64,000 nt of DNA from Flavobacterium jumunjinense (GTDB taxonomy: Bacteria > Bacteroidota > Bacteroidia > Flavobacteriales > Flavobacteriaceae), in the NCBI RefSeq assembly GCF_021650975.2, contig NZ_CP091285.1:2418001-2482000 (forward strand), written 5' to 3'. Made by a program: the position numbers and the translations under genes. The notes under the pieces are model-generated. The model had not been told where the DNA came from. It did not search any database and was given only the letters and a program-made list of their open reading frames with translations. This document shows positions 21,193-43,088 of the stretch, in pieces; position 1 is the first letter of the stretch, and each line of letters starts with the position of its first letter.

Positions 21193-21203
21193 AAATCAAA
21201 GCT

Positions 21204-21410: not shown

Positions 21411-21411
21411 C

Positions 21412-23127: not shown

Positions 23128-23131
23128 CGAT

Positions 23132-23691: not shown

Positions 23692-23692
23692 A

Positions 23693-24469
23693 ATGATATT
23701 AACGAGATTAGGCAACAAAAGAAAAATGAAAGAGCATTTATATAGTTATTTCCCTGAACACAAAATGAGAATCGAATTGTTTTTTGGTGCAGGTGGTTCT
23801 TACTTCTATTTGCCAGAACCAAAATACTCAATTCTTAATGACCTTGATGATGATGTTACAAATCTATACCATGTAATTAAGACTGATAGAAAAGAGTTTG
23901 AAAAGGAAATTTTAATGATGCCAATTACTCAAAATTTAATTAAGTATTGGAAGAATAATCAAGAAAGTGATCCTATTAAAAAAGCCTTACGTTTTATTTT
24001 ACTATCTAATTTTACTTATTTAGGTAAAGGAGATACGTTGCGTTTAGGATTGGATAACACAAAGAGAGTGTTAATTAAGAATATTGAGCCTACTTTTTTA
24101 AAACTTCAAAATACCAAAATTACAAATGATGATTTTAGAAATGTGATACCTAAAATTTCCTTCAGTAAAAAGTTGCTTACAAAAAAGCAGTCTTTTGTTT
24201 ACCTAGATCCAGTTTATTTGGATACTGAACATTATTATAAAGTTCCAAAATGGACTGAAACAGATACTTTAGATTGTTTTAAAATAATGCAAAATTCAGG
24301 TATTAATTGCGCAATGAGTGAATTTGACAATGAAATGATTTTAGACTTTGCAAGCGATTTTAAAATGAAAGTTAATTATCTAAAAAATAGAACTAATATT
24401 AGAAACAGAAGAAATGAAATTTTAATAACTAATTATAATAATACACCTCAATTAAAAATTGAATTATAA
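23693..24469 (+). CDS. D12-class DNA adenine N6-methyltransferase
   Basis: 258 residues. N-terminal LTRLGNKRKMKEHLYSYFP and FFGAGGSYFYLPEPKYSILND form the SAM pocket (FxGxG). The catalytic motif reads DPVY (YLDPVYLDTEHYY) instead of the usual DPPY, and the C-terminus has the class end RRNEILITNYN. Orphan enzyme without a restriction partner, as in many phages, where it protects DNA or times replication. Its target site cannot be read from the sequence. Confidence 0.8.
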   Translation: MILTRLGNKRKMKEHLYSYFPEHKMRIELFFGAGGSYFYLPEPKYSILNDLDDDVTNLYHVIKTDRKEFEKEILMMPITQNLIKYWKNNQESDPIKKALRFILLSNFTYLGKGDTLRLGLDNTKRVLIKNIEPTFLKLQNTKITNDDFRNVIPKISFSKKLLTKKQSFVYLDPVYLDTEHYYKVPKWTETDTLDCFKIMQNSGINCAMSEFDNEMILDFASDFKMKVNYLKNRTNIRNRRNEILITNYNNTPQLKIEL

Positions 24470-24492
24470 CCTACCTTAACTATCCCGTTGCA

Positions 24493-24930
24493 ATGAGTCA
24501 AACAAAGCCAATCCCTTTTTTAGTAGACAAAAAAAAACTTAGAACAATGTATAACGATCTTCCCAGTGGAGAAGTTATTGGAGCTTTAAAATTTATTGTA
24601 GAAAAGACAATTTTGAAAACTCCTTTTTCTAAACGAACAATTAAATGTCAAAGCTTGAATCATTTAGAATTTGCCGAATTCGTTGCAATGTACGGTACAC
24701 CAAAAGGTTATTTTATCACCAAAGAGTTTGAACAAACCTTGCAACAATTAAAAGCAGACAACACAAAAGAAACCGCTTCTAGGATTGAAAAATGCATCGC
24801 AGAAATTAGAAAGAAGTTCACAGAATTAAACACACCTGAAGAGAAACTAAAAGCGTTGCAACAAAGTTGTTTTGCTTACAACTTGGATGCAACGTTTATT
24901 AAGAAAATTATAGGATTTAAAAATGATTAG
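24493..24930 (+). CDS. hypothetical early protein
   Basis: 145 residues, helical, starts in the ...GTTGCAATGAG context. A Leu/Lys-rich coiled-coil part at about 85-120. No family recognised. Confidence 0.5.
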   Translation: MSQTKPIPFLVDKKKLRTMYNDLPSGEVIGALKFIVEKTILKTPFSKRTIKCQSLNHLEFAEFVAMYGTPKGYFITKEFEQTLQQLKADNTKETASRIEKCIAEIRKKFTELNTPEEKLKALQQSCFAYNLDATFIKKIIGFKND

Positions 24931-24932
24931 TT

Positions 24933-25160
24933 ATGAGAACAAAAATTATTTATAAAAAGGGTTGGTATCATTTAATTAGAATAAGATTTTTTATAAATGA
25001 AGAAATAGACTATTCTAAAAATTTAGAATGGATAAAAAATAAACAACAGAAATATCACTTTTTTTTTGAAGAACAGTTAAGAATAAAAAAGAAATTTAAA
25101 CCAATTTTTTTAGAGAGTAAAAAAAATAATAACGCAACACAATTATGGCAAAAGCTTTAA
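24933..25160 (+). CDS. small basic hypothetical protein
   Basis: 75 residues, Lys/Phe-rich, AT-richer than its neighbours. Two bases after the previous gene and 16 bases overlap with the next. Function unknown. Confidence 0.45.
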   Translation: MRTKIIYKKGWYHLIRIRFFINEEIDYSKNLEWIKNKQQKYHFFFEEQLRIKKKFKPIFLESKKNNNATQLWQKL

Positions 25161-25396
25161 AATCGGATAAACCATTATATGCCCTAATCAATAAAAATTT
25201 CATTATTAGAGTATTAGAAAATCCAAAGGAAAACCCGCTAAAAAACACCAAATTAACCTCTGCAAACAAGCTTTCAAACTATTTGCAAGACGAACCGCTT
25301 AAAATGAAGCTTTTTAACAAAGCTTTAGATGGTGGAAAAGATAAATACACGTTTTTAATACGAAGTAGGCTTAAAATTGAATTTCATGCAAAATAA
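25145..25396 (+). CDS. small basic hypothetical protein, last early gene
   Basis: 83 residues (MAKALKSDKPLYALINKNF...), basic, ends in a shared terminator. Function unknown. Confidence 0.5.
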   Translation: MAKALKSDKPLYALINKNFIIRVLENPKENPLKNTKLTSANKLSNYLQDEPLKMKLFNKALDGGKDKYTFLIRSRLKIEFHAK

Positions 25397-26727: not shown

Positions 26728-28173
26728 GTGAGCAATTCATTATTTAGAAATTTGAAAAACGGTGCTAAGTATAACGCCCTTATCAAAACAAATAACTGTA
26801 ACAAAGTTTATGAAGGTAAGGGCAATACTTTCTTCACTATCGAGCTAATGATTAAAAATATTCAAGAAAATTACAAACAAGCGGTTTTGTTAGCTCCTGA
26901 ATTTAAAAAACAATCATTAAAAGAAACGTGTCAATCAATACATTCTTTTTTGTATTGGCATTTTCAATACAAGCAAGATGAGAAGCCTCAAATGGTTCGT
27001 TCACTCAATTGCTCATGGCTTGAAAGATTTACGGGAATTGATTGTAAAAGCTATTCAGTTAATGGAGGGATAATTTTAAAGCAATTAGGAATAAAATTCT
27101 ATATCAGAAAAATAATTCAGGAGGTTAAAAAGCATGATATAGGATTAGGTAATTATTCTCATGTTTATTTAATAGTTCCATTAAATCAAACAACAGGTTC
27201 TTTAAATCAAGGCTATTATACGATTGATGGAACATTACCACACACAACCGAACCATTTTACATTAAAGAAAAATCATTTTTTATGGATAATAATTTACCA
27301 CATTATAGTTTAAATGGTCCATCAGGTTTGCATGGAGAAGAAGCAGAAGAAAACACATGGTTAGATAATAACTGGGAAAGTATAAAATCAAAACTAAGCT
27401 GTTGGGGTGGTTCTGCGTATGATTTAAACAGAGCCAAAAGTGACATGGAAGGCATTTTGGGGATTCTTCATACTCATTTAGAAAACATCAACACTTCGTT
27501 AGCATCTGACAATATGCAAGCATTAGCAACATCGGTCAACCGATTTATAGGTATTGCTGCTTGGAACGCTTCGCTTGTTGGCACAAAAAGAAGTCATTCT
27601 TGGCCAAGTGATTGCACGAAAAACAATTTAAAAATCACACATGAAGCGTATAACTTTTATAGATATGAAGTCACCAACGCATTGATGATTTACTTGGATA
27701 CTTACTTTACAGGCATTCAAAATGGTAGTGTTGTATATGGTAGAGTTTCCCGCTCAGGAGAAGGCGTTCAAGAAGCGTATACTGGAGAATGGGCGACATG
27801 GGAAGACCAAGACATTGTTTTTGACATTCCTTTTGTAAAGTACACACCCAAACCCAATATAAATATTCCCGCTTTTGAAATCACGCCTTATGTAGGACAA
27901 ACAAATACTTCCAATTTTGATGTAGGCACTTTTTTACAAGGCTTGTCCAATATCATTAAAACCATTGGAGGTTCTTCAGGAGGAGGTTCAACAGGTTCGG
28001 GAACAGGCACGGGGAGTGGCTTTGAATATGACAATAACAATCCTGATAATCCCACTTACAAACCATCAACCAGTAAAGCAGTTTTAGGATGGAGCGCAGC
28101 GCTTGTATTAGGTGGAATAGCCTTTACTAAAATGAAAGACAAACCAAAAGTAAAACCAAAAACAGAAAAATAA
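26728..28173 (+). CDS. transglutaminase-like protein with C-terminal membrane anchor
   Basis: 481 residues from GTG at 26728; first gene of the late operon. Papain/transglutaminase-like triad: Cys106 in TGIDCKSYS, His145 in GNYSHVYLIV, Asp167 in YYTIDGT, in the right order and spacing. Middle domain of unknown fold, then a Gly/Ser/Thr-rich linker (about 405-430), then a membrane segment (about 450-467) and a Lys-rich tail. In tailed phages related domains act in head or tail morphogenesis; here it is probably a virion or maturation protein. TAATG coupling to the next gene. Confidence 0.6.
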   Translation: MSNSLFRNLKNGAKYNALIKTNNCNKVYEGKGNTFFTIELMIKNIQENYKQAVLLAPEFKKQSLKETCQSIHSFLYWHFQYKQDEKPQMVRSLNCSWLERFTGIDCKSYSVNGGIILKQLGIKFYIRKIIQEVKKHDIGLGNYSHVYLIVPLNQTTGSLNQGYYTIDGTLPHTTEPFYIKEKSFFMDNNLPHYSLNGPSGLHGEEAEENTWLDNNWESIKSKLSCWGGSAYDLNRAKSDMEGILGILHTHLENINTSLASDNMQALATSVNRFIGIAAWNASLVGTKRSHSWPSDCTKNNLKITHEAYNFYRYEVTNALMIYLDTYFTGIQNGSVVYGRVSRSGEGVQEAYTGEWATWEDQDIVFDIPFVKYTPKPNINIPAFEITPYVGQTNTSNFDVGTFLQGLSNIIKTIGGSSGGGSTGSGTGTGSGFEYDNNNPDNPTYKPSTSKAVLGWSAALVLGGIAFTKMKDKPKVKPKTEK

Positions 28174-29111
28174 TGTATCAAGATAATTACAGCATAGAAG
28201 AAGAAAATCAAGGCTTAAACGGTTGGTTTGGTAGATTTTTAAAAGGAGTAATTGTTCGAGCTGCGGCAATGGTAGATTCTTATTTGTCAGTTCAAACAGC
28301 AGGTCTTTCGGCAGAAATAGGAAGTTTTGCTTCATGGGCTGATACTATTGGAACAGGTTCAGGAAATAATGGATGGTGGCAAAAAGGAGCATTACCGATT
28401 TACAATATTGAAGATGACCCAAGGGCACAATATGAACCCAACAGTATTGAAGAAACCGTTTTAACAGCATTTGCTGATAATTTGGCTAAGATTGTAGGAT
28501 TAGTTAGTGAAGATGCGATTAATAAAGTACAACAGCTTCCTTTTTCAAATCAGAAAATTGCGAACGCCAACGCTTTGTTGCAACGCATTGCAACAGTGAA
28601 AGGCTATTATCAATTTCACGAAATGGAAAGGCTGTCTTATGCAGCGGTACAATTGAGAAACTTACTTATTGAAAGTTTATTTATCCCCGTTGAAAAGTTA
28701 TTGCAACAGCAAATGGAAAAGGATGCTTCTTCATTTTTTCAAACCAATGTTGTAGTGAGTATTCCATCAAAAACAATGATAACCGATATAGCACCTTTTC
28801 AAAAAGTGTCTGTTATTCCGATTAAAGCGAGTTTTAAAATTTACGAATTGCACCCAAAATTAGATTTACCACCTGATGATGTGATTGTGGTAGATAACCC
28901 ACCAAAAGGAGATGAAGGCATTGAAATTTCACCACCACCCAATGATGATGATGTCGTGATTACAGTTCCCGATCCAACGGATCCAATTCAAACGACAGTT
29001 CCCGATTTAAGCGTAACTCCAGAAGGTTCAGGATTGCCTTGGTTATTGTTAATCGGAGGCAGTGTCTTAGTGGTTTGGGCAACAAAGAAAAAGAAGAAAG
29101 AAAAGAAATAA
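28173..29111 (+). CDS. late protein with Pro/Asp-rich stalk and C-terminal membrane anchor
   Basis: 312 residues. Helical N-terminal part, a low-complexity Pro/Asp/Thr linker (about 230-280), one membrane segment (about 285-302, LPWLLLIGGSVLVVWA) and a tail KKKKKEKK. Same plan as the preceding protein: ectodomain, stalk, anchor, basic tail. A virion spike or membrane protein is plausible. No family recognised. Confidence 0.5.
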   Translation: MYQDNYSIEEENQGLNGWFGRFLKGVIVRAAAMVDSYLSVQTAGLSAEIGSFASWADTIGTGSGNNGWWQKGALPIYNIEDDPRAQYEPNSIEETVLTAFADNLAKIVGLVSEDAINKVQQLPFSNQKIANANALLQRIATVKGYYQFHEMERLSYAAVQLRNLLIESLFIPVEKLLQQQMEKDASSFFQTNVVVSIPSKTMITDIAPFQKVSVIPIKASFKIYELHPKLDLPPDDVIVVDNPPKGDEGIEISPPPNDDDVVITVPDPTDPIQTTVPDLSVTPEGSGLPWLLLIGGSVLVVWATKKKKKEKK

Positions 29112-29133
29112 TATTAATCAAAAATCGAATACA

Positions 29134-29631
29134 ATGGAATTAAAACCAATAAAAACGGAGCAGTTAAGCTCGGGAGTTGTTAATGTTGTTGGAGCAGGAG
29201 CAGGCTTTATGCTTCCGGGCGCTTTAGCCAATATGGTTGCTAAAGTAAAAGCGGAAACAGTAGTAACTGAAGCCCAAAAGAAAAAGAAATTAATGGTTAA
29301 TGCAGCCTGTATTTTAGCGGGTATCGCAGGAAGTTTAGCAGTAAGCGGAAAAGATACTGTAGCAGAAGGTGTAAGAGCTTTATGTACAGGTATTGCAGGA
29401 GGTGGAATTAAAGGCGTTGCTTCTCATTTACTTGAAAAAGAAGTAGCCAAAACAGATGCAGCAAGCAACAAAGGAATGCTTTTACGTGGTGCACTTGGTT
29501 GTCCACAGCCAACAATGAACCAAAGTAGAATTACACATTATCCAACCTTAAATCGACCAGGGCGATTAAGACAACCAATTTTTCAAAGCAACCCTAGTTT
29601 AGAAATAGGAACAAACGACCCATTATCGTAA
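29134..29631 (+). CDS. late membrane protein
   Basis: 165 residues. Two or three Gly/Ala-rich hydrophobic segments (about 14-35, 52-68, 82-100) with basic loops, then a polar tail. Compact Gly/Ala-rich segments are typical of small virion membrane proteins. Directly upstream of the candidate capsid gene. Confidence 0.5.
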   Translation: MELKPIKTEQLSSGVVNVVGAGAGFMLPGALANMVAKVKAETVVTEAQKKKKLMVNAACILAGIAGSLAVSGKDTVAEGVRALCTGIAGGGIKGVASHLLEKEVAKTDAASNKGMLLRGALGCPQPTMNQSRITHYPTLNRPGRLRQPIFQSNPSLEIGTNDPLS

Positions 29632-29691
29632 GTCGTAATTAAGAGTACAAGAATTTTAAAATAGAATCAAACCAAAATAAAAAAGAACAAG

Positions 29692-30252
29692 ATGCAAAGT
29701 ATCACATTAGAACAAGCTGTAAGAACAGCACAACAATTAAAAACAGGAGAAGCTTTACCTTCTGTAATGATTTTAAATACAGAATATTTTCCTAGAAAAG
29801 CGGTGAAATTCACATCGGGATTGTCTAATAAAATAGAGAATACCGAGCTTATTTTACCAAAGCACGTTAAAGAAGTAGGGGTAAGGAACATCGATAAGGA
29901 TCAGTTGGATTATCCTTTTTTACCAACAGGAATAAGATTGGTGTTTGACACAACAACAGCAGATGTTACTCCTAATGTTGCGGACTATAAAGACAATGCA
30001 CCTGTGTATTGGGCAAATGGAGAAATCACTATTTTTCAAGATGGTGTGTTAGCAGAGCTTCCTGTTTCTGTCTTAGCAAACAACTTTAATCCGTTGACTA
30101 CTACGGATGATTTTTTCCCATTAGCTCCTTTTTTAATTCGTCCAAATAAATCCTTTAAAATCAGTACATCACTTGCAGGTGTTGCACAAGCAGGTCATGC
30201 TTATAGAATTGAAATTCTAGGAATTGAGTTTGTAAAGAATTCAAGAAACTAA
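29692..30252 (+). CDS. candidate major capsid protein (beta-rich)
   Basis: 186 residues, no signal or membrane segment. After a helical start, strand-rich: GIRLVFDTTTADVTP, VYWANGEITIFQDGVLAELPVSVL, FFPLAPFLIRPNKSFKISTSL, AYRIEILGIEFV. It is set apart by its own spacing (60 bases upstream) and followed by a strong terminator hairpin, an arrangement often found around highly expressed capsid genes. Size would suit a single jelly-roll. No sequence family recognised, so this is inference. Confidence 0.4.
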   Translation: MQSITLEQAVRTAQQLKTGEALPSVMILNTEYFPRKAVKFTSGLSNKIENTELILPKHVKEVGVRNIDKDQLDYPFLPTGIRLVFDTTTADVTPNVADYKDNAPVYWANGEITIFQDGVLAELPVSVLANNFNPLTTTDDFFPLAPFLIRPNKSFKISTSLAGVAQAGHAYRIEILGIEFVKNSRN

Positions 30253-30264
30253 TTAATCAAACCC

Positions 30265-30295
30265 AAAAGACTGCAAGTTTTTTGCAGTCTTTTTT
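30265..30295 (+). terminator. internal terminator/attenuator after the candidate capsid gene
   Basis: AAAGACTGCAA / TTGCAGTCTTT, 11-bp stem plus T tract, within the late operon. It would give more transcript for the upstream genes than for the downstream ones. Confidence 0.85.
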
Positions 30296-30307
30296 AACTC
30301 TTTTCAA

Positions 30308-30676
30308 ATGGAAATAACATACATAGAAGAAGTAAAAGACATTACTGTTTTAAATGGAAAAACAGGAGCTGTTGTTGATGAAGCAACCGATGTTGATGGT
30401 TCATTAATTGTTGGAGTTGTCATTTATCACGATGCTTTATCAGTGAATCCAAGCATGATAAAAGCGTCATTATATGGCAATCAAAAAGAACTGTCAAAGA
30501 TGCAACATATTGACAATTATAGAAGTAGAGAAGCATCTTACAGCGAAGGATTTAAGCCTGTAGAACCGATGGAATCAGGAAAGAGAATTCGTTTTGAAAT
30601 TCGTGCTGATAGTGCATTCACAGCAGATTTTAAAGCGCAATTAATTTTAATAAAAGAGAAAAGAAAAAACTGTTAA
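30308..30676 (+). CDS. small beta-rich late protein, possible minor capsid protein
   Basis: 122 residues, strand-rich (SLIVGVVIYHDALS, RIRFEIRADSAFTADFKAQLILI), no membrane segment. Could be a second small jelly-roll. Two bases before the next gene. Confidence 0.45.
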   Translation: MEITYIEEVKDITVLNGKTGAVVDEATDVDGSLIVGVVIYHDALSVNPSMIKASLYGNQKELSKMQHIDNYRSREASYSEGFKPVEPMESGKRIRFEIRADSAFTADFKAQLILIKEKRKNC

Positions 30677-30678
30677 TT

Positions 30679-30978
30679 ATGGCAAAGGTTGTACTAACAT
30701 CAAAGGAAATATTTAGAAAAGACAAGGTTCGAGAGCATAACGTAACAAGTCTTGTTATTTCAAATCTTGATACTAAAGAAGCGCGTTTTTTATACAATGG
30801 TGTACCAAGAATAATCCCTCCATTTGATGCGATGTACAATGTGCCAGTTGGCAGTTTTGAATTCTCCAATTACGGACATCACTTTGATATTGACATTCAA
30901 TTTGATAGTGATACTTATAATCTGGTGGTTGATTATTCAATACTACTAGAAGCTACTAACCCTAACAATTGTAGATAA
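30679..30978 (+). CDS. small beta-rich late protein, possible capsid or vertex protein
   Basis: 99 residues with alternating strands (VTSLVISNLDTKEARFLYNG, GHHFDIDIQFDSDTYNLVVDYSILLEA). Third of three consecutive beta-rich proteins. TAATG coupling to the next gene. Confidence 0.45.
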   Translation: MAKVVLTSKEIFRKDKVREHNVTSLVISNLDTKEARFLYNGVPRIIPPFDAMYNVPVGSFEFSNYGHHFDIDIQFDSDTYNLVVDYSILLEATNPNNCR

Positions 30979-31736
30979 TGAGGCAAGAATTTATACAATT
31001 AGTTCAAAAGTTACAGACAGATGCTTTGGCAGCGGTTTCTGTTTCCAATAAGAACAACTATCAGGAAATTTTAAAAAGTACCTACGGGCATGAACTAATT
31101 CAAAAATATGGTTCGGTTCAAAATTACTTTGAAAAGTTGAACCAAGAAGGACATACTGATTTAATTATTCAAGAATGGCGAAAAAACGGAAATACTAAGG
31201 TGCGAAAAAACAATCCTTTTGAAGTTTCTTTTTTAGAAAAGCCACAACCGACACAAGTGAAACCACAAGAACCCACAGGAAATATGTTTCAAGGATTAAA
31301 AGGAACAGGATTAGGCTTTACCGATGTTCTGACAATGAACACTAATTCAGAGTTGAAAATTCGATATGAAATTGAAAATGAATTCTTAAAAAAGGAAAAC
31401 AAGAAACTTCAAGATGAAGTTTTACAGTTAAAAGAGAATTCATTAAAAGACAAATACGCAGGAGATAAGAAAAACCAAACTGGAGAAGCCGTTAATAATG
31501 CCATTAACCAACTTGGTCCAATTGTACAATCTTTTTTCCAACCTAGAGAAGCACCCACCGCATTAAATGCACCTGTGCAAAATTTATCAGAAATAAAAAG
31601 CCAGTTGCAACAATTATTGCAACACACGCAATTTTCAGATGCAATGGCAGAATTACTGCTATTAGTGAATAATAAAATCAATGATGATGACGGATTTTAT
31701 GACAAGCTAGTGCAATTATTAGAACAACAACCTTAA
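30978..31736 (+). CDS. late coiled-coil protein
   Basis: 252 residues. Helical N-terminus, a linker with PQPTQVKPQEPTG, a coiled coil at about 125-160 (ENEFLKKENKKLQDEVLQLKE), then a Gln-rich helical end. Plausible scaffold or structural spacer protein. Confidence 0.5.
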   Translation: MRQEFIQLVQKLQTDALAAVSVSNKNNYQEILKSTYGHELIQKYGSVQNYFEKLNQEGHTDLIIQEWRKNGNTKVRKNNPFEVSFLEKPQPTQVKPQEPTGNMFQGLKGTGLGFTDVLTMNTNSELKIRYEIENEFLKKENKKLQDEVLQLKENSLKDKYAGDKKNQTGEAVNNAINQLGPIVQSFFQPREAPTALNAPVQNLSEIKSQLQQLLQHTQFSDAMAELLLLVNNKINDDDGFYDKLVQLLEQQP

Positions 31737-31748
31737 AAAAAACACAAG

Positions 31749-31940
31749 ATGCAAAAACAAATCTCATTAACAGTACAGCCTTCCAATGCAGTTGATTTAA
31801 AGGCAAAGCAAAAAGCGTTAGAAGCTATTGCTTTATTAGAAACAGACACATTAACCTTTTTAGGCGAGTTAGCCAATTCACCCAAAGCGGTTAAGAAATT
31901 AAAAGACAATAAAAAGCTCATTAAAACAATGGTCATGTAG
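31749..31940 (+). CDS. small late protein
   Basis: 63 residues, mostly helical, basic end (VKKLKDNKKLIKTMVM). Ends just before a terminator. Function unknown. Confidence 0.5.
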   Translation: MQKQISLTVQPSNAVDLKAKQKALEAIALLETDTLTFLGELANSPKAVKKLKDNKKLIKTMVM

Positions 31941-31953
31941 TTTGTGTTGTGTC

Positions 31954-31993
31954 AACCACACTTTGCACTTGCCTTGCGGGTGTGGTTTTTTTT
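31954..31993 (+). terminator. second internal terminator in the late operon
   Basis: AACCACAC / GTGTGGTT stem and T8 tract. Confidence 0.8.
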
Positions 31994-32017
31994 GAATCAT
32001 TAAAACAATAAAATAGT

Positions 32018-32563
32018 ATGTCCAAAATAGTTGATAAAGCCAAAAAAGGTCTTGAAAAAACAGGAGAAGCCGTAAAGAAAAATAAGACCCTACTGCTCAT
32101 TGTAGGCAGTGTAGCGGTGTATTCCATTTATAAAATAGTATCCAATACCACCTCGGCAGTTGATGATATTTTTAATCCTGATATTGACAATGAAGTAGAA
32201 GGTACTGGAGGAAGTACACAAGGCGCATCGATTAGCAACCAACAAGCAACCAATTATGCGCAACAACTTTTAGATGCTATGAATTATAATCCGTGTTGGA
32301 TTTGCTACGGAACCGATGAAGAAAAGATTTTAGCTGTTTTTCAGAGGCTAAAAAACACAGGCGATTTTATCAAAGTCTATAATGCTTTTGGTAAAAAAGA
32401 TTACAACGGTTATAACTCACCTCCCGATGGAATTTTAGCCAATTTAGATAGTTATGAGCCGCGTAATTTGGTCTATTGGTTAAAATCAGAATTAGAGCCG
32501 AAGGATGGCGATGTGTATGACATCGTTAAAGAAAGAGTAGAGTTAGCAGGTTTCACATTTTAA
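32018..32563 (+). CDS. late protein with N-terminal membrane anchor
   Basis: 181 residues. Basic amphipathic start, membrane segment at about 23-42 (TLLLIVGSVAVYSIYKIV), then a soluble domain with NPCWICYGTDEEKILAVFQRL, which looks like an annexin-like or EF-like helical repeat (IL..F..L..TGDF..V). No family named with confidence. Confidence 0.5.
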   Translation: MSKIVDKAKKGLEKTGEAVKKNKTLLLIVGSVAVYSIYKIVSNTTSAVDDIFNPDIDNEVEGTGGSTQGASISNQQATNYAQQLLDAMNYNPCWICYGTDEEKILAVFQRLKNTGDFIKVYNAFGKKDYNGYNSPPDGILANLDSYEPRNLVYWLKSELEPKDGDVYDIVKERVELAGFTF

Positions 32564-32573
32564 TTCAAAAGCA

Positions 32574-32945
32574 ATGTTAGTAAAAGGAAAAATAACAGAT
32601 TATGAAGGCTTCCCCATTTTTGATGCAACGGTAGTTATTAAAGGAAGCGATCCTATAATTGGAGCAACAGCCAATTTTGATGGGAATTACGCCATTAATG
32701 TAAATAGAGGCGATATACTGAAATTCTCTCATGTGGGTACAAACCAAATCATTGAAAGAAATGTAACCGCTTCAATGACAACATTAGATATTGCCATGCC
32801 GAACGAATTGCAATTGGATGAAACGGTTGTAATAGGAAAGAAACGCACCAATTGGTTTTGGTTACCTCTTGTTATTGTTGGTGGTGCTATTGCTGTGAAT
32901 CAGTCCAGAAAAGAGAAAGCAACACCCAAAAAAATCAAAATCTAA
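32574..32945 (+). CDS. carboxypeptidase-regulatory-like domain on a membrane anchor
   Basis: 123 residues. Residues 2-85 form a CarboxypepD_reg-like beta-sandwich (VKGKITDYEGFPIFDATVVIKGS ... GNYAINVNRGDILKFSHVG), the domain usually found at the N-terminus of SusC-type receptors. It is followed by a membrane segment (about 92-108) and tail SRKEKATPKKIKI. Unusual in a phage-like operon: it may be a virion surface domain borrowed from the host. Ends one base into the next gene. Confidence 0.65.
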   Translation: MLVKGKITDYEGFPIFDATVVIKGSDPIIGATANFDGNYAINVNRGDILKFSHVGTNQIIERNVTASMTTLDIAMPNELQLDETVVIGKKRTNWFWLPLVIVGGAIAVNQSRKEKATPKKIKI

Positions 32946-33403
32946 TGACTTCTTATCTAAATAGTACGCTCCCCAATTTACCTAGAGGTTTACGCAACAA
33001 TAACCCGGGCAATTTGATACAAACAAATATTCCCTGGAATGGTAAAGTGCCACTATCTCAAAACACCGATACGCGTTTTGAACAATTCTACGAATTACGC
33101 TATGGTATAAGAGCTTTGATGTTGGACTTGTATAATGATTTTTACAAAGGAAAAAACACAGTCACGCAATTAATATCAGAGTTTGCGCCCCATTTTGAAA
33201 ACAATACCGATGCTTATATCCGTTCGGTTATTAGTGGCATCGGTTCTAATGTGATTGGAACACTTACTGAAGAAAAACTAATCGGATTATCCAAAGCCAT
33301 TGTTTTAATGGAAAACGGAGTGAAGTATAAAAACTACATCACCGATAACGATTACAAACAAGCGGTAGCCATTTTAGGAAAACCCCTTAAAAAAAAAGCA
33401 TAG
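32945..33403 (+). CDS. virion-type lysozyme-like protein (P5-like, NNPGN motif)
   Basis: 152 residues from the ATG at 32945. Starts with RGLRNNNPGNLI, followed by W.G, FEQFYELRYGIRALMLDLYND and a helical core, the pattern of small transglycosylase-like proteins annotated as structural protein P5 in Bacteroidota prophages. Known role of relatives: local peptidoglycan cleavage during entry. No signal peptide, so it is probably carried in the virion or membrane-delivered. Confidence 0.7.
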   Translation: MTSYLNSTLPNLPRGLRNNNPGNLIQTNIPWNGKVPLSQNTDTRFEQFYELRYGIRALMLDLYNDFYKGKNTVTQLISEFAPHFENNTDAYIRSVISGIGSNVIGTLTEEKLIGLSKAIVLMENGVKYKNYITDNDYKQAVAILGKPLKKKA

Positions 33404-33463
33404 GAATTTTGCCAGTTTTGGCACTCTCAACGGCTATAATTTTAATGATTAAGAAACTAAAAC

Positions 33464-33970
33464 ATGATCGGAAATAAACCTTTTTCACGCCCAGCACTTG
33501 ACGAATTAAAAGACAAATTACTGGATAGTTATAACGGAGTAAGAGCCGAACCAGTTGATACAACTTTAAACGGTTTTCATATTGAGAAAACAGAAAATAA
33601 AAGCATTGGATTTTCGGTAGTCAATAATGATAATTCGGGCAATGCAGCGCAAGCTAACATTATGGTTAAAGGAAGTGGAAAACTCTATTCCAATTATGTT
33701 GGATTAAGTTATTACAACAACAATTATTATGTAGCTGCTTTTAGAAATAGCGGTTTATTGTTTTCTGATAAAACCTTGAATTTAGCAACATGGTATAACA
33801 ATCCTATTGTTTTTAGAACAGGTGCTACCTTTTCAGGAACAACACCAAAATTTACCATTCATGGCAACGGACAACTTCAATTGGGCGTTCAACCGACATT
33901 AAATAATGCAGTTACTAAACTTTTAGCCATTGATGAACTTGGAAACATTGTAACTGTCGATAAACCTTAA
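33464..33970 (+). CDS. candidate receptor-binding/fibre-tip protein
   Basis: 168 residues. Short helical start, then long Gly/Asn/Tyr-rich beta stretches (GKLYSNYVGLSYYNNNYYVAAF, PKFTIHGNGQLQLGVQPTLNN) and an end like LLAIDELGNIVTVDKP, common at the ends of phage fibre or spike proteins. Preceded by a 60-base spacer. Function inferred from composition. Confidence 0.5.
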   Translation: MIGNKPFSRPALDELKDKLLDSYNGVRAEPVDTTLNGFHIEKTENKSIGFSVVNNDNSGNAAQANIMVKGSGKLYSNYVGLSYYNNNYYVAAFRNSGLLFSDKTLNLATWYNNPIVFRTGATFSGTTPKFTIHGNGQLQLGVQPTLNNAVTKLLAIDELGNIVTVDKP

Positions 33971-33981
33971 AAAAAATAGAT

Positions 33982-34224
33982 ATGCAGCTTTCAGAATTAC
34001 TCAATTACATACTTGGTGGAACAAACCTTGCAACAATTATTTTAGGATGGAGAACCCGCAAAACAGATGCAGTGGATAAGATGGCTGATGTCTATAAAAA
34101 AATGTCGGAACAAACAGAAAAACGATTGAACGAAATGCAAAAAACATTAGACGAATACCGTACAGAATTAAACCAGTATATCAATCAATGTTCTAAATGT
34201 TCCAATAACAAACTAAGAAAATGA
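33982..34224 (+). CDS. small coiled-coil protein, possible spanin or holin partner
   Basis: 80 residues. Weakly hydrophobic start (LLNYILGGTNLATIILGW) then a coiled coil (KMADVYKKMSEQTEKRLNEMQK) and two Cys near the end. Next to a lipoprotein gene, with an ATGA overlap, which is the arrangement of i-spanin/o-spanin pairs; tentative. Confidence 0.45.
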   Translation: MQLSELLNYILGGTNLATIILGWRTRKTDAVDKMADVYKKMSEQTEKRLNEMQKTLDEYRTELNQYINQCSKCSNNKLRK

Positions 34225-34799
34225 AACTACTAAAAACACTCTTAGCAATGCTATTGCTCTTGTTTGTTTCTTGCGCTGTCAAGCACAAAGAAAAGCAATA
34301 TGAAAAAGAAACAGTACAACTAAAAAGCACTACCCATTCTAAAAGCACAGCTTTAAAAGAAACACTTGCAACAAAAGCAATTGCTACTAAAAAAGAAGTG
34401 GAGTTTGAAGTGTCAAATATAAGCTATCAAGGCAATAAAGGCGATTCGTTAGTTATTACAGAAACCAATTTGAATACTGGAGTAACAACCAAGAAAACGT
34501 ATCAAGGTTCGGGAACATTCACCCAAACCAAAACAAAAGGAAGTACTTCAGAAAACATAAAATCGACAACAAGAAATCAAACTTCACAAAACAAAGCAGC
34601 AGAAAATCAAAACCATTTGGATGCTAAAATACAACGATCCAAATCTAAAAAGTTAGTGGATAAACAAACCTTTTTTAACTGGTGGTTACTATTGCTTTTA
34701 GTAGTAATTGCAATTGCTTGGTATTTGAACAAAGAATTCAATTGGGTTTTCAAATTGTACAGTCAAATTAAGAAAGTTGCAAGTCTAATTTTTAAATAA
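34221..34799 (+). CDS. lipoprotein with C-terminal membrane segment
   Basis: 192 residues. Lipobox LLFVSC with Cys18, a long Lys/Thr/Ser-rich disordered middle, then one membrane segment (about 155-172) and an amphipathic basic end. A lipid anchor at one end and a membrane span at the other could bridge two membranes, as unimolecular spanins do. Placed next to hydrolase genes, which fits a lysis role. Confidence 0.55.
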   Translation: MKLLKTLLAMLLLLFVSCAVKHKEKQYEKETVQLKSTTHSKSTALKETLATKAIATKKEVEFEVSNISYQGNKGDSLVITETNLNTGVTTKKTYQGSGTFTQTKTKGSTSENIKSTTRNQTSQNKAAENQNHLDAKIQRSKSKKLVDKQTFFNWWLLLLLVVIAIAWYLNKEFNWVFKLYSQIKKVASLIFK

Positions 34800-34807
34800 T
34801 TGAACCC

Positions 34808-35290
34808 ATGAAAAAAAGTACCTGGTACATCATCGGAACAACAACATTATTATTTCTAATTATGGGAACAAAAAAAGCATTCGCAAAAATAACAGCCAAT
34901 CAAAACCTAAGAACCTGCGATTCGCATGGGTGCGGTTCTTTTGGAGCAAGTAGAGGCAACAGAAAACATAATGGTATTGATATTATAACAGTACCAGGAG
35001 AAAAAATCATGAGTCCAATTTCGGGAACAGTAACGCGCTATCCTTATCCGTATGGGAACGATTTAAGTTATACAGGCATTGAAATTGTAAATTCAGAATA
35101 CAAAATAAAAATGTTCTATTTAAAACCAATTGCACCAATAGGAAGCAGTGTATTTGCAGGTAAAATAATTGGTGTTTCTCAAAATATAGCTGCTAAATAC
35201 AGTGCAGCAATGACCAATCATGTGCATTTAGAAGTGTATAAAAAGCAAGGAACTAACTGGATTTTAATCGATCCTACAAACTTATTTTAA
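34808..35290 (+). CDS. M23-family peptidoglycan endopeptidase
   Basis: 160 residues. N-terminal membrane segment or signal anchor (about 5-20), then a LytM core: zinc ligands His54 and Asp58 (HNGID) and the HxH motif His138/His140 (NHVHLEV). All four metal/catalytic positions are present. Cleaves stem-peptide cross-links in related enzymes. Role in entry or lysis. Confidence 0.85.
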   Translation: MKKSTWYIIGTTTLLFLIMGTKKAFAKITANQNLRTCDSHGCGSFGASRGNRKHNGIDIITVPGEKIMSPISGTVTRYPYPYGNDLSYTGIEIVNSEYKIKMFYLKPIAPIGSSVFAGKIIGVSQNIAAKYSAAMTNHVHLEVYKKQGTNWILIDPTNLF

Positions 35291-35291
35291 T

Positions 35292-35759
35292 ATGAAACCA
35301 ATCCTAAAAAAAGCAATATTAATTTCAGGTGTTTCTTTTGCAATAGTAGGTGTTTTAGCCTACAACAAAGTGCAGAAACTAAAACGTGTTTTTGAGAAAC
35401 TAGAAATTAAACCCGTAAGCGTTCGAAATCTAAAAGTATCATTTACAGCCATCACTTTTACAACCGATATTCTATTTGTTAATCCAACCTCAGAAGAATT
35501 TTCTGTGAGTGGTTATGTGGCTTCTTTAAAGCGATTGAACTTCTTTTATTCAGGGAAATATATAGCAACCATTCGCCCAGTAATAAATGAAATCGAAATT
35601 CCAGCCAATAACAAATTACTGTTTAAAAACTTACCTGTAGAATTGCCTTCAGGAGAAATTTTAGGTTCAATAATGGAACTTACCTCATTCGATATTAACA
35701 AGCTAAGTATTGAAGCTTTTATTGATGTTGCAGGTTCAGAATATAGTATAAAAGGATAA
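35292..35759 (+). CDS. LEA-type (WHy-like) beta-sandwich protein with membrane anchor
   Basis: 155 residues. N-terminal membrane segment (about 7-24), then a domain like LEA_2/WHy proteins: VRNLKVSFTAITFTTDILFVNPTSEEFSVSGYVASL (strand, NP turn, strand) and IEIPANNKLLFKNLPVEL. The VxNPT turn is the family hallmark. Known relatives are stress or secretion-associated; presence in a phage-like operon is unusual and suggests a virion or injection component. Confidence 0.55.
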   Translation: MKPILKKAILISGVSFAIVGVLAYNKVQKLKRVFEKLEIKPVSVRNLKVSFTAITFTTDILFVNPTSEEFSVSGYVASLKRLNFFYSGKYIATIRPVINEIEIPANNKLLFKNLPVELPSGEILGSIMELTSFDINKLSIEAFIDVAGSEYSIKG

Positions 35760-35760
35760 T

Positions 35761-37992
35761 ATGAGTAAATCGATAGCACAATTTAACGCACTTAACGGAG
35801 TTGTTGCAACACGAGAAGACTTGTTGCAAATTATTAAACTCGCAAAAAACGAAGAACAAAAACACCTTGTTCGAAAACTAGAAAATATCTTAATCACGCA
35901 TTCCGACAATGAATTTGAAATAGAATTAAAAGAAAACGCTTTTGAAGTTGTACCCAAAAGTTGGTTGTCAGGCATTGAGTTTGACGATGCTGTAGACGAA
36001 GATTTTACAGGGTTGAATAAGGCAGTTTCTCCTTCAGATATTTATCAAATGATTTCAGATAGAATGGTCAAGATGATAAAAGAAGCGAGCGGGAGTGGTT
36101 ATCAAAAGAAATGGAAAAGAACGGAAGACCAGTATTTAATACCGTTTAATTTTGATACTAAAAAACGATATAGAGGTGTAAACTCTTTGTTGCTTACTGA
36201 GTTTGGAAGTTTACCTAACCCTTACTTTATGACATTTAAGCAGATTGAAAAACATAACGGATTTTTAAAGAAAGGTTCTAAAGGTTATCCAGTAATTTAT
36301 TTCACTAAGTTGTATAAAGTTGATGACAAAAAGAATGACTATACTTTTGGTTCTTATGATAAAAAGAAAGTGATTGATTATGCAAAAAAGAAAGGTATTG
36401 ATATTGCTAACATTTATTATCTACCAATACTTAAATATTACAATGTTTTCAACGGTCAGGATATAACTGGGATTGATTTTGATTTGAAGAATTTTAAGAT
36501 TGGTTATTTAGCTCCTGAAATGAAAATTGATAAAACGAAGGAAGTAGAGCGATTAATAATTGCAGATGAAATTATCAATAATTATCCTTCTCCAGCTCCA
36601 AAGTATATTGAAAAAGGGAATGATGCTTTTTTTGATCCTAATAGAGATTCGGTAACAATGCCACCAATTCAATCTTTTGAAACCTTACAGGATTATTATA
36701 GAACAAAGTTTCATGAATACGCACATAGTACAGGACACTTTAAAAGATTGAATAGAGATTTTTCAGGTAAGTTTGGTTCTAAACCCTATGCTTTTGAAGA
36801 ATTGGTAGCAGAATGGGGCGCTACTTTTTTAAGTGCTGAAGCAGGTATTATTTGGCATAATAATACAAACCATGCTGAATATTTAAAGAACTGGAATAAC
36901 GCTTTAACGTATATTAAAGAGGATACAAAATTTGTTATGCGAGCTTGTACAAAAGCGCAAGAGCTAACCGATTTTATATTGCAATTTGATGAGTCGAGTA
37001 CGCCTAAGTATTTAAAGAACGTTGTTCAGAAAAGCGAAAAACCAACTGAAGAAAAAGAGCCTTTAACTAAGAAAAAGCCAAAAAAGAAAACCGTTAAAAA
37101 GCCAGTTGGAGCCAAAGAAGAACCAACCAAAGAAGAAATAAAAGAAGCATCAGTAAAGCCTGTAAAAGTCGATAAAAATGGACAATACGGATTGTTTGGT
37201 GCAAAAAAGAAACCCAAAGCAAAACTTTCAGGAGTTCCCATTATTGAAGAACAAGAAGCAGAAAATCCCGTTGCAACAAACAAATTAATGCAAATGCAAT
37301 TTGATTCCTTACCTATCAATGAAGAGTGGCAGGAACTCATGCAGCACCCAGCAGCTAATTTGAAAATTGCGATTTGGGGAAAACCAAAAAATGGTAAAAC
37401 TTCGGCATCCTTACAAATGGCAAATTATTTCACCAACTTCGGGAATGTGCTTTATAATTTCGCAGACCAGGGCTTTAATAAATCAACACAAGATTTATGG
37501 ATTAACTCAGGGTTAGCAGACAATTCAAATGCCTTTCCTGATGATTCCGATACCATAGAAGCACTTGAAAAAGAAATTGCAACTGGGAAATATAAGTTCG
37601 TTTTTATAGACATGATTTCCGATTACATACGATTAGAAAAAATTAAGCCGGAAGACTTCAAAAAACGATTCATTAAAAAATACCCTAGTGTATCCTTCAT
37701 TTTAATTTTTGAAGTTACCAAAAGTGGCAACTTCAAAGGGGATCAAGGTTGGACACATTTAGTCGATGCAATAATGACCGTTGAAGATTTCTTAATTGAA
37801 AACAGAGGTCGCTATGGAATGGGGGAGCGTGTCGTTTGGGAAGAGGGCTTTAAAAAGGTCAACCCTAAGAAATATCAAGAATACTTAGAAAGCAAAACAA
37901 CCGATACAACGGAAGTAATAGAAGAAGAACAAACTGAAAATATACCTGGTCCCGTAACTAACGTTCCAGAATTTTCATTTCAAATACAATAA
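35761..37992 (+). CDS. ArdC-like metallopeptidase fused to RecA-like ATPase
   Basis: 743 residues, largest gene of the element. About 95-220: ArdC N-terminal/DUF1738 ssDNA-binding domain (KKRYRGVNSLLLTEFG, MTFKQIEKHNGFLKKGSKGYPVIYF). About 290-400: zincin with HEYAHSTGH (His318, Glu319, His322) and EELVAEWGA. About 425-500: Lys/Pro/Glu-rich linker. About 535-700: P-loop ATPase with Walker A GKPKNGKTS near 540 and Walker B KFVFIDMISDY near 615. Known: ArdC proteins bind incoming ssDNA and block restriction. The ATPase could serve packaging or DNA handling; no terminase nuclease is attached. Confidence 0.75.
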   Translation: MSKSIAQFNALNGVVATREDLLQIIKLAKNEEQKHLVRKLENILITHSDNEFEIELKENAFEVVPKSWLSGIEFDDAVDEDFTGLNKAVSPSDIYQMISDRMVKMIKEASGSGYQKKWKRTEDQYLIPFNFDTKKRYRGVNSLLLTEFGSLPNPYFMTFKQIEKHNGFLKKGSKGYPVIYFTKLYKVDDKKNDYTFGSYDKKKVIDYAKKKGIDIANIYYLPILKYYNVFNGQDITGIDFDLKNFKIGYLAPEMKIDKTKEVERLIIADEIINNYPSPAPKYIEKGNDAFFDPNRDSVTMPPIQSFETLQDYYRTKFHEYAHSTGHFKRLNRDFSGKFGSKPYAFEELVAEWGATFLSAEAGIIWHNNTNHAEYLKNWNNALTYIKEDTKFVMRACTKAQELTDFILQFDESSTPKYLKNVVQKSEKPTEEKEPLTKKKPKKKTVKKPVGAKEEPTKEEIKEASVKPVKVDKNGQYGLFGAKKKPKAKLSGVPIIEEQEAENPVATNKLMQMQFDSLPINEEWQELMQHPAANLKIAIWGKPKNGKTSASLQMANYFTNFGNVLYNFADQGFNKSTQDLWINSGLADNSNAFPDDSDTIEALEKEIATGKYKFVFIDMISDYIRLEKIKPEDFKKRFIKKYPSVSFILIFEVTKSGNFKGDQGWTHLVDAIMTVEDFLIENRGRYGMGERVVWEEGFKKVNPKKYQEYLESKTTDTTEVIEEEQTENIPGPVTNVPEFSFQIQ

Positions 37993-38023
37993 ATCAATCA
38001 TCAATCAAAAAACGTAATCAATT

Positions 38024-38161
38024 ATGAGTACAAAACGAGTAAGTAAGAAAGAAGCATTAACCTCATGCGGAACAAAACTAAAGAAAGGCTACAAATATGT
38101 AAAAGGTGGAGCTGTGGTTAAAGTAACCGCCAAGAAGAAAGCCAAATCGAAGAAAAAGTAA
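38024..38161 (+). CDS. small basic protein, last gene of the late operon
   Basis: 45 residues, MSTKRVSKKEALTSCGT..., about one third Lys/Arg; near-identical to the element A copy at 12138. May condense or bind the genome, by composition only. The upstream 35 bases are also conserved between the two elements. Confidence 0.6.
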   Translation: MSTKRVSKKEALTSCGTKLKKGYKYVKGGAVVKVTAKKKAKSKKK

Positions 38162-38177: not shown

Positions 38178-38214
38178 AAAAACCGTTGCAATTTTTGTTG
38201 CAACGGTTTTTTTG
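38178..38214 (+). terminator. late operon terminator containing GTTGCAAC
   Basis: AAACCGTTGCAA / TTGCAACGGTTT, 12-bp perfect stem, T7 tract. Confidence 0.9.
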
Positions 38215-39455: not shown

Positions 39456-40634
39456 TTATTCACCTTCAGCCGTATAAATCATAACATTTTTAACAAATGT
39501 GTCTTTAATAATTTTGTTTAATTCTCTCATATTTTCAAATTGCTCAACTTTAATCTGATTACAAATAATATTATGAATCTCTTTCGGTAATTCTGTAGAA
39601 TAACCTCTATTAAATTTTTTAATAATGTCTGTAACTCGGAATTCAACAAACTTCTTTTTATCTTTTACACTCAATAAAGTGAAGAATCCTTTGTAATCGA
39701 ACCTAGACCTTAATTCAGGTGATATTCTCTTAGGAAAATCTTCTTTACTTATGTTTGAAGTAAAAATTATAATAAATCCATTTAAGTCAATATCTTCTGA
39801 TAGAGAGCTTCTCATTTTTCCGTTTTCCAATACGTCTAGAAAATAATTAAATAAAGTTGCATTAGATTTTTCAAACTCATCAATTAATATCAATCCAGTA
39901 TCTGAATCATTTACCCTAATGAATAATTCTCCTGTATCACTCCCAATATAACCTCTTGGACTTCCAATTAATGAGTTCAATGAATTGTCACTACTATAGT
40001 TACCAAAATTTACTTTAGCTAGTTTTTCTTTTCCTTTTAATGATTTATGTATTGCTCTTGCAACCTCTGTTTTTCCAACACCTGAATCTCCCATTAGGAA
40101 TATGGAAAGAACTTTATGTTCTCCTAACTTATTGAAAACACGAAAATTTCTAATTAATTCTTCAAAATCTGCTTTAAACTTATCATGTCCATAAATCTTT
40201 TCCGCAAATGACTTTGTGAAATCTGAAATTTCATCGTTGCTTAAATCTATTATTTTTTTGTGTTCTAATTTCTTAAGTTTTCCAGAAATTTCCTGATCAT
40301 CGATTACTTCAAATTCATCAACAATATCAAGTTCTTTAAATTCTTCAAAGCAAAACCTAAGTTCATATTCAAATAGCTTTTTGAAATTATTATCTGCTAT
40401 AAATTTCGTTTTTTGTGGAAAGAGAGGAAATACAGATTCAGAATTATATTGAATACCATTTATGTGTGCTAAAGAACTTATGTCTATTATTTGATAGTAC
40501 TCATTTATTTCTGAAGCATTATCAAAATTACGTAAGCTATCTGTAATTGAAATTATTTTTATTCCTTCTTTAGCTTTTAGTCGTTTATAAAAATCAAAGT
40601 AATTTTTATTATAAAATAATAGTTTATCAATCAT
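39456..40634 (-). CDS. AAA+ ATPase of the ClpA/B D2 type (cargo)
   Basis: 392 residues. N-terminal 140 residues unrecognised, probably a partner-binding domain. AAA_2 core: Walker A GDSGVGKTE (182-190), pore-region GSPRGYIGSDTG, Walker B LILIDEFE (247-254), sensor 1 IIFTSN (Asn294), arginine finger ELRSRFD (309-311), then the small helical lid. A single ring domain without ClpP-binding loop evident. One base separates it from the upstream gene, so they are co-translated. Confidence 0.8.
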   Translation of the reverse strand: MIDKLLFYNKNYFDFYKRLKAKEGIKIISITDSLRNFDNASEINEYYQIIDISSLAHINGIQYNSESVFPLFPQKTKFIADNNFKKLFEYELRFCFEEFKELDIVDEFEVIDDQEISGKLKKLEHKKIIDLSNDEISDFTKSFAEKIYGHDKFKADFEELIRNFRVFNKLGEHKVLSIFLMGDSGVGKTEVARAIHKSLKGKEKLAKVNFGNYSSDNSLNSLIGSPRGYIGSDTGELFIRVNDSDTGLILIDEFEKSNATLFNYFLDVLENGKMRSSLSEDIDLNGFIIIFTSNISKEDFPKRISPELRSRFDYKGFFTLLSVKDKKKFVEFRVTDIIKKFNRGYSTELPKEIHNIICNQIKVEQFENMRELNKIIKDTFVKNVMIYTAEGE

Positions 40635-40635
40635 T

Positions 40636-41487
40636 TTACTCTGGAAGTGTTACGTTTTGAACTATTGCTAATAAATCTATATAATGAAAAACTTTATTTT
40701 CTTGATTTGAACTAAAGAATAAATTACTTGGATTTTCTGTTTTTGTTGTGTATTGGCTATCTTGAATTTCTTGATTGTCATTTTTTTGAATACTATTTAG
40801 ATTTTGCAAATTTCCAACTTCTTGGAAGAATTCAAAAGAATTTTTTAAAGAATCAACTTTAATTTTTCCTTTATATAGACCAACAACCGAAACTTTGCCA
40901 ATAAATAAATCGTCAACGCTATAAGAACTTTCAAATTCACTTTCAAAAGTATGTGGGATTTTAACTAATAACTCTTCTTCTGAATCATCAATTGTTCCTC
41001 TTATTTTGTAAGCATAATCTTTAAACATCGAATTAAAAAGGTTGTTTATGTCAAAACCATCAGCTCCAGGAATATTCATTCCTTTAAAAGTGCCACTCGC
41101 AAATAGCTTTACTGTTCTTAATTCTGCTTCATTCTCTAGAGAAAGATTAACGTTATCTATTTTAATCAATTTTCCTTCTTTCAATTGAGAAAAGTCAGTA
41201 ACAGTTTGGCTTTTTTCAATAATCTCATTTAGAATGATTGATTTAGTAGTTTTTATTTCGAATGTTTCAAGTACTTTCTGAGAGTCCGATTTGATGTTTT
41301 TACTTCCTGCTTCAATTCCAGTATTGAAAAAGGTTAAAAAATTAGCACCTAATTTTACTCGATAATCAATATCTTTCACTTTAGTCTGGTCTGTTTGTTC
41401 CTCTCTACTTAATGCAATAACGTTACCGAGCATCATTTTAATCTCATAAACTTTCGGGAAGTTGATGTAGTATATGTTGAATATCAT
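40636..41487 (-). CDS. DUF6414-like protein (cargo operon first gene)
   Basis: 283 residues. Start IYYINFPKVYEI, then RVKLGANFLTFFNTGIEAGSK and IIEKSQTVTDFSQLKEGKLIKIDNVNLSLENEAELR resemble the DUF6414 family as I recall it (an 'I(Y/F)LD...V.SL' start and '.EGsyIki...' centre). Soluble. First gene behind the TACGTA promoter site 7. Known DUF6414 members occur in defence neighbourhoods; the function is not established. Confidence 0.5.
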   Translation of the reverse strand: MIFNIYYINFPKVYEIKMMLGNVIALSREEQTDQTKVKDIDYRVKLGANFLTFFNTGIEAGSKNIKSDSQKVLETFEIKTTKSIILNEIIEKSQTVTDFSQLKEGKLIKIDNVNLSLENEAELRTVKLFASGTFKGMNIPGADGFDINNLFNSMFKDYAYKIRGTIDDSEEELLVKIPHTFESEFESSYSVDDLFIGKVSVVGLYKGKIKVDSLKNSFEFFQEVGNLQNLNSIQKNDNQEIQDSQYTTKTENPSNLFFSSNQENKVFHYIDLLAIVQNVTLPE

Positions 41488-43058: not shown

Positions 43059-43088
43059 ATAAAATTTATTTTTTTTGCCTTTGCTTAG

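Follow-up and report, generated by a model that had tools for sequence, protein, structure and literature searches.

A late operon in a Flavobacterium jumunjinense provirus, probably that of a tailless virus distantly related to Salisaeta icosahedral phage 1

Gene content of the late operon

We analysed a stretch of 64,000 nucleotides of the Flavobacterium jumunjinense chromosome (NZ_CP091285.1, positions 2,418,001 to 2,482,000), here called the window. At 26728-37992 it contains 17 head-to-tail rightward open reading frames (ORFs), numbered g1 to g17 (Table 1), that form a single operon. It is the late, or virion, operon of a provirus of 26.2 kb, which occupies 16925-43130 in a tRNA-Met array. 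With a probability of about 0.87 we interpret it as the late module of a temperate provirus of a tailless icosahedral double-stranded DNA (dsDNA) virus, probably with an internal membrane and distantly related to Salisaeta icosahedral phage 1 (SSIP-1). An initial annotation, made from the sequence, had described about 20 rightward late genes; the single rightward operon was retained and the count was corrected to 17.

Both peptidoglycan hydrolases of that annotation were recovered in profile scans, as the P5-like lysozyme g11 and the M23 protein g15. The start of g11 was taken as 32945, the program-made ORF list beginning at 32852. The P-loop ATPase was likewise found, in the C-terminal part of g17, the N-terminal part being composed of ArdC and a zincin-like peptidase (PF18818, E 4.5e-33; PF08401, E 9e-19). 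The first late gene, g1, had been left unnamed and belongs to a transglutaminase-like family. Among 19 aligned g1 proteins DUF553 was matched in 14 and Transglut_core in five, neither of them in the window's own g1, and Cys106, His145 and Asp167 were invariant across all rows. A weak Rz-like match was obtained for g13 (phrog_739, E 7e-4), and g14 matched phrog_19472 (unknown function, E 1.5e-11). The conserved C-terminal domain of g9 is one that we take to be annexin-like. Positional equivalents of g6 in three other loci (L007, L008 and L009) were 16-22% identical to it. For g12, Pfam and PHROG scans gave no family match, and its family has two members, from the window and from a second copy of the element.

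A hydropathy scan with a 15-residue mean of at least 1.6 placed a membrane segment in nine of the 17 late proteins (those starting at 26728, 28173, 29134, 30308, 32018, 32574, 34221, 34808 and 35292), and a stricter 19-residue scan in five. The earlier count of at least seven small membrane-anchored proteins is fair but soft, since it depends on the threshold, and the protein at 26728 is not small. The segment at 30308 (g5) is probably false and corresponds to a beta-strand in the predicted structure. Lys/Arg-rich C-terminal tails, also reported initially, were strongest in the proteins at 26728, 28173 and 32574, where they lie behind the membrane segment.

Three consecutive beta-rich proteins had been proposed at 29692, 30308 and 30679; the first two, g4 and g5, were modelled and both were beta. 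The model of the 186-aa g4, of middling confidence, resembled single jelly-roll capsid proteins, which suggests a capsid-type fold as the initial annotation had expected. The g5 model had 8 strands (predicted local distance difference test 78, predicted template modelling score 0.70), and g5 may be a second jelly-roll subunit.

In the Pfam and PHROG scans none of the 17 late proteins matched a terminase, a portal or a sheath or tube protein, and no relaxase or conjugation gene was detected, as the initial annotation had stated. Where tail or head proteins were named, the match lay in the lysozyme or M23 domain or was coiled-coil noise (33982, E 0.06-0.12). The PHROG scans, which took in 40 provirus ORFs, gave no large terminase, portal, Rep or relaxase, and small-terminase matches at E 0.02-0.09 only. 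Of the two outcomes named beforehand as speaking against a tailless virus, a terminase, portal or tail gene did not appear, and the g4 model pointed to a capsid-type fold. For the capsid-block proteins (26728-32563) PHROG gave nothing at E 1e-3 and Pfam nothing above the cut-off.

Table 1. Features of the provirus in window coordinates
Feature	Position	Strand	Description
attL	16925..16971		47-bp copy of tRNA-Met 3' part; 46/47 bases identical to 43084-43130
Repressor	19199..19750	-	CI/Cro-type helix-turn-helix repressor, divergent from early genes; PF01381 E 5e-7; PHROG transcriptional regulator E 5e-9
Early genes	19851..25396	+	small proteins; 571-aa protein at 21412 (no family match); DNA methyltransferase at 23693
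g1	26728..28173	+	transglutaminase-like; membrane anchor at the C-terminus followed by a Lys-rich tail; homologous to SSIP-1 structural protein gp34
g2	28173..29111	+	312 aa, C-terminal anchor and Lys tail; in 14/32 loci
g3	29134..29631	+	hydrophobic protein directly upstream of capsid gene; same place as SSIP-1 gp44 (position only)
g4	29692..30252	+	putative major capsid protein, 186 aa, single jelly roll; relative of SSIP-1 gp45/gp46
g5	30308..30676	+	beta-sandwich; putative minor capsid or second jelly-roll subunit; in 23/32 loci
g6	30679..30978	+	small beta-rich protein; profile match in 3/32 loci only
g7	30978..31736	+	coiled-coil; possible relative of SSIP-1 gp33; in 29/32 loci
g8	31749..31940	+	63 aa; in 25/32 loci
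g9	32018..32563	+	N-terminal membrane anchor, conserved C-terminal domain with GTDE motif; in 26/32 loci
g10	32574..32945	+	CarboxypepD_reg-like domain (PF13715 E 9e-10), C-terminal anchor, Lys tail; in 22/32 loci
g11	32945..33403	+	P5-like lysozyme; phrog_873 endolysin E 8e-28
g12	33464..33970	+	putative spike or fibre protein, from position only
g13-g14	33982..34799	+	small coiled-coil protein and lipoprotein-like membrane protein; possible lysis functions
g15	34808..35290	+	M23 endopeptidase, N-terminal hydrophobic segment; PF01551 E 5e-7
g16	35292..35759	+	155 aa, N-terminal anchor; in 24/32 loci
g17	35761..37992	+	743 aa; N-terminal ArdC-type antirestriction/zincin part and C-terminal RecA/KaiC-like ATPase in one protein; SSIP-1 gp40 is a homologue of the ATPase
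Terminator-like repeat	38180..38213	+	inverted repeat and T-run at late operon end, read from sequence
Candidate defence pair	39456..41487	-	PDC-M37B / PDC-M37A, provirus cargo; PADLOC E 5e-150 and 7e-112
Integrase	41809..43026	-	tyrosine integrase; PHROG integrase E 1e-28; PF00589 E 2e-5, just below curated cut-off
attR	43084..43130		at 3' end of tRNA-Met (43088-43161)

Relationship to Salisaeta icosahedral phage 1

Four tblastn queries were run against 50,697 phage records. Three gave no match, and the fourth, g1 of contig L077, matched solely the two SSIP-1 records (E 2e-4). The SSIP-1 record annotates gp34, gp40 (ATPase) and gp45-gp48 as structural, and gp34 itself matched Transglut_core (E 9e-7). 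Profiles were then searched against all 389 six-frame SSIP-1 ORFs of at least 45 aa. A 19-row g1 profile, built from window-type g1 proteins only, found gp34 at E 1.5e-8 with the next best at 7.5, and hhalign gave 96.7%. The g17 ATPase profile found gp40 at E 7e-20 when the SSIP-1-type row L071 was included and at E 5e-13 (next 24) when it was left out; the match concerns a common ATPase class.

For g4, a direct profile search of SSIP-1 did not detect gp45 or gp46 (E 3.6 in a set of 27 of the 57 SSIP-1 proteins), and hhalign against 26 SSIP-1 proteins gave 32% for gp46, 23% for gp45 and less than 2% for the others. A gp34-type profile matched 25 of 244 genomes in another class of the phylum (that of genome G648), 20 of them at E <1e-32 and five weakly. 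Eleven loci were read; ten (L071, L108-L116) are SSIP-1-syntenic proviruses with relatives of gp33, gp34, gp35, gp36, gp40, gp44, gp46, gp47 and gp48, and the eleventh, L117, is a short contig. When g4 was compared with the gp46 family from these proviruses, the profile-profile comparison gave 95.1% (E 3e-8); with the 19-row alignment A10 it gave 95.3%. The gp45 profile is nearly identical to that of gp46, and if it is set aside the next-best SSIP-1 family reached 4.3% or 2.9%; eight other window families gave at most 0.4% against gp46. Further pairs were g5 and gp47, which matched weakly (8.9%), g3 and gp44, for which there was no profile-profile match, and g7 and gp33 (hhalign 79%, over a coiled coil). 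The BFVD entries I1ZBH9 and I1ZBI0 appear to be SSIP-1 gp46 and gp47, judging from their lengths (211 and 256) and neighbouring accessions.

By sequence comparison, three SSIP-1 structural proteins or protein pairs have homologues in the late module: gp34, gp40 and, at the profile level, gp45/gp46. SSIP-1 is the known virus nearest to the window provirus, which supersedes the initial annotation on this point, where no known family was named; the tailless virus type proposed at the same time gains support from these homologues, the membrane being inferred. SSIP-1 and the provirus also have in common a hydrophobic gene immediately before the capsid gene, and both encode a large polyvalent protein close to the ATPase. 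The two differ in genome size (43.8 kb in SSIP-1, 26.2 kb for the window provirus), in the number of gp45/gp46-family genes (two and one, respectively) and in the ATPase, which is a separate gene in SSIP-1 and fused to ArdC in the provirus. Most other compared late genes had no convincing match, gp33 being the only possible one. Because the gene order and the remaining structural genes differ, we regard the provirus as a distant relative and not as a member of an SSIP-1 genus or family. We place the provirus group next to SSIP-1 as a new temperate branch, distant from it and outside Helvetiavirae.

SSIP-1 is listed as a 100-nm, T=49 virus with a circular dsDNA genome of 44 kbp and, with a question mark, a single jelly roll (PMC6260650). 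It is described as a membrane-containing virus that has capsid proteins of two types and whose genome resembles hardly anything in GenBank (PMC6356626), and it has been placed with sphaerolipoviruses by structure (PMC5332951, PMC4958249). In the NCBI taxonomy it is still unclassified. Among the titles and abstract openings listed from the open-licence literature there was no description of SSIP-1-like proviruses, which is not proof of absence.

The provirus, its copies and its relatives

Four tRNA-Met genes lie at 43088-43475 and two at 16721-16896, on either side of the provirus. In the Pfam and PHROG scans no replication protein was recognised among the early genes. A leftward PLD-like nuclease gene with a weak DrmC-like match (25559-26506) stands between the early and the late genes. 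A second copy with the same late module was found on the same chromosome at about 2.59-2.62 Mb, in a stretch that holds tRNA-Arg (L010/L011, G000:C1 2589001-2629000). Its aligned late DNA was 92-96% identical to that of the window, with a gap within g17, and common early stretches were 84% and 92% identical. The third copy, at 11.6-16.97 kb of the window in the same tRNA-Met array, is an internally deleted remnant, 96% identical over 1.76 kb at the integrase end and with its integrase split into two separate frames. The second copy and the remnant indicate that the element has moved more than once.

Three kinds of repeats were also observed. TTGTTGCAACR occurs at 10 sites within 12308-38205, nine in the provirus and one in the remnant, with none elsewhere in the window and 0.1 expected; one site is 49 bp upstream of the late operon and another forms the operon's terminator-like repeat, and the motif is possibly an operator or packaging site. 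The sequence TACGTATWWATACGTA was matched 13 times at no more than 2 mismatches within 3359-41690 (0.07 expected), 12 of the matches forming six pairs spaced 33 bp; matches occur in the host DNA, in the remnant and at either end of the provirus. One arm of a perfect 28-bp inverted repeat (19446-19473) lies in the repressor gene and the other (20050-20077) in the first early gene; both frames encode ATNVATNI.

Gene order was compared in 32 loci picked by a g1 or g4 match, the window and the second copy (L010 and L011, counted as one locus) included. Left out were two loci at contig ends (L044 and L045), two that, judging by length, lie on the contigs of L009 and L007 (L013 and L014, respectively), and L001-L006 and other short search loci. 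Nine families were scored (g1, g4, g5, g7, g8, g9, g10, g16 and g17). At least seven of them were present on one strand and in the window's order in 24 of the 32 loci, which makes the operon more than a chance arrangement and bears out the syntenic copies that the initial annotation had proposed to look for. The other eight loci carry 6, 5, 5, 4, 3, 2, 2 and 0 of the families. The counts not given in Table 1 were 31 loci for g1, 29 for g4, 18 for g17 and 2 for g3. In two loci (L065:3415-7923 and L071:7666-12033) giant proteins of 1502 and 1455 aa with a virion-type ATPase domain replace the 743-aa ArdC-ATPase.

With the g4 protein as query, five of 397 genomes of the window's family were found, its own genome included and one of them doubtful. 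When a profile built from four g1 proteins was used, 19 of the 397 matched (16 at E <1e-42, three weak), as did 11 of 395 genomes in a phylum sample (three weak), three genomes being common to both lists. Named relatives are Pustulibacterium marinum and Aurantibacter aestuarii, which carry related proviruses, and Capnocytophaga periodontitidis. Five IMG/VR contigs carry at least g1 and g4 (L012, L074-L077), and a g1 match was seen in a sixth, L084.

The g4 family was represented by one gene in 28 of 29 window-type loci and by two in contig L077, which are sisters (99/96). Likewise the gp45/gp46 family had one gene in all ten SSIP-1-type proviruses and two in SSIP-1. The capsid-family tree has several long branches and does not firmly place gp45 relative to gp46; the duplication seen in SSIP-1 may therefore be older and have been followed by losses.

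Interpretation, alternatives and significance

The nature of the element as a provirus and a virus is strongly supported. That the virus is tailless is supported by the SSIP-1 homology together with the absence of tail genes, and an internal membrane is suggested by the anchored proteins. Particles and inducibility of the window provirus are predictions from its genes. Upon induction the integrase would excise a circle. The anchored proteins (g1, g2, g9, g10 and others) may form a membrane vesicle beneath the shell with their Lys-rich tails facing the DNA, and the ATPase half of g17 would package or translocate the DNA. The ArdC half, carried in the particle, could block restriction upon entry, when the P5-like lysozyme would open the cell wall. 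M23 (g15), the Rz-like protein and g14 may act in lysis, and g1, with its Cys-His-Asp triad, might process or crosslink a virion or wall component.

Three alternatives to this interpretation were weighed. The best surviving one, in our view unlikely, is a defective or domesticated element, gene-transfer or satellite-like, which has kept its virion genes and no longer completes its cycle. A deleted remnant adjoins the provirus, its 26 kb are fewer than the 43.8 kb of SSIP-1, and no replicase was recognised among the early genes in the scans; however, all 17 late frames are open, the integrase and att sites appear intact, and the late module of the second copy is 92-96% identical in DNA where aligned. 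Clearly less probable is an SSIP-1-related tailless virus whose shell has no internal membrane and whose anchored proteins act at the host envelope, in lysis and entry. A membrane cannot be read from sequence and several anchored proteins (g13-g15) could be lysis factors, but SSIP-1, which has a g1 homologue, is described as membrane-containing (PMC6356626). Anchored families also sit inside the capsid block and are conserved (g9 in 26 and g10 in 22 of the 32 loci; g1 in 31, although loci were picked by g1). A non-viral integrative element, either like an integrative and conjugative element or a secreted surface apparatus with wall hydrolases and membrane proteins, is very improbable, as the many membrane proteins and an ArdC-type protein, a type known from conjugative elements too, are outweighed by the homology to annotated phage structural proteins and by the scans, in which no relaxase or conjugation gene was found.

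Known types of element were also compared. An integrative and conjugative element was rejected on the two grounds just given. A tailed phage (Caudoviricetes) was rejected, as the Pfam and PHROG scans gave no large terminase, portal, HK97 capsid or tail genes beyond the lysozyme/M23-domain, coiled-coil and weak small-terminase matches. Finnlakeviridae (FLiP) and PhiCjT23 share the Flavobacterium host and are described as lipid-containing phages, with PhiCjT23-like prophages in existence (PMC9719478). In contrast to the provirus, their genomes are single-stranded DNA, measure between 7.6 and about 9 kb and encode Rep together with a capsid protein of double jelly-roll fold (239 residues in PhiCjT23); the Finnlakeviridae/PhiCjT23 type was rejected on the 186-aa capsid candidate, the missing Rep match and the 26.2-kb provirus with a tyrosine integrase. 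The fF4 type, a Mu-like myovirus of F. columnare (PMC7761591), was considered and rejected, as were Charybdis elements, described as small circular elements with other proteins (PMC12324425).

Helvetiavirae (SH1, HHIV-2, HCIV-1 and P23-77), for which the realm Singelaviria has since been set up by the International Committee on Taxonomy of Viruses (PMC12714852), have two single jelly-roll capsid genes, against one g4-family gene here, to which g5 could add a divergent second subunit. They are characterised by an FtsK/HerA packaging ATPase (PMC8328091). None was found in the PHROG scans of the 40 provirus ORFs or in the Pfam scans, a very divergent one being possible; g17 is AAA_24-like and gp40 AAA_25-like. 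One-capsid-protein viruses have been discussed in this context in a paper whose authors we take to be Krupovic et al. It proposes that the one-capsid-protein virus SPV1 resembles the state before capsid-gene duplication in the Helvetiavirae line; SPV1 (Portogloboviridae) differs from the provirus in being archaeal and in having no packaging ATPase (PMC8812541).

As a provirus of a distant SSIP-1 relative, the element provides SSIP-1, until now apparently alone, with proviral relatives in many Bacteroidota, and thus points to a virus group with cultivable lysogens. Such proviruses are easily overlooked, as the lack of PHROG and Pfam matches above the cut-offs for the window's capsid-block proteins shows, though IMG/VR has five such contigs. 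Because of the one-capsid-gene state, the duplication step proposed for the evolution of jelly-roll viruses can be tested. More tentatively, and with the odds rather against it, these proviruses and SSIP-1 might together be a high-rank group, large and so far undescribed, of dsDNA viruses that have a single jelly-roll capsid and infect ordinary Bacteroidota. Such viruses would normally have only one gene of this capsid family, their ATPase would be RecA/KaiC-like and not FtsK/HerA, and the capsid gene would probably have been duplicated at least twice among them (SSIP-1; L077). The present proviruses add many one-capsid-gene relatives from bacteria, although g5 could turn out to be a second jelly-roll subunit. 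If the high-rank group is real, cultivable bacteria would preserve the one-capsid-protein state proposed as ancestral to the two-capsid-protein viruses.
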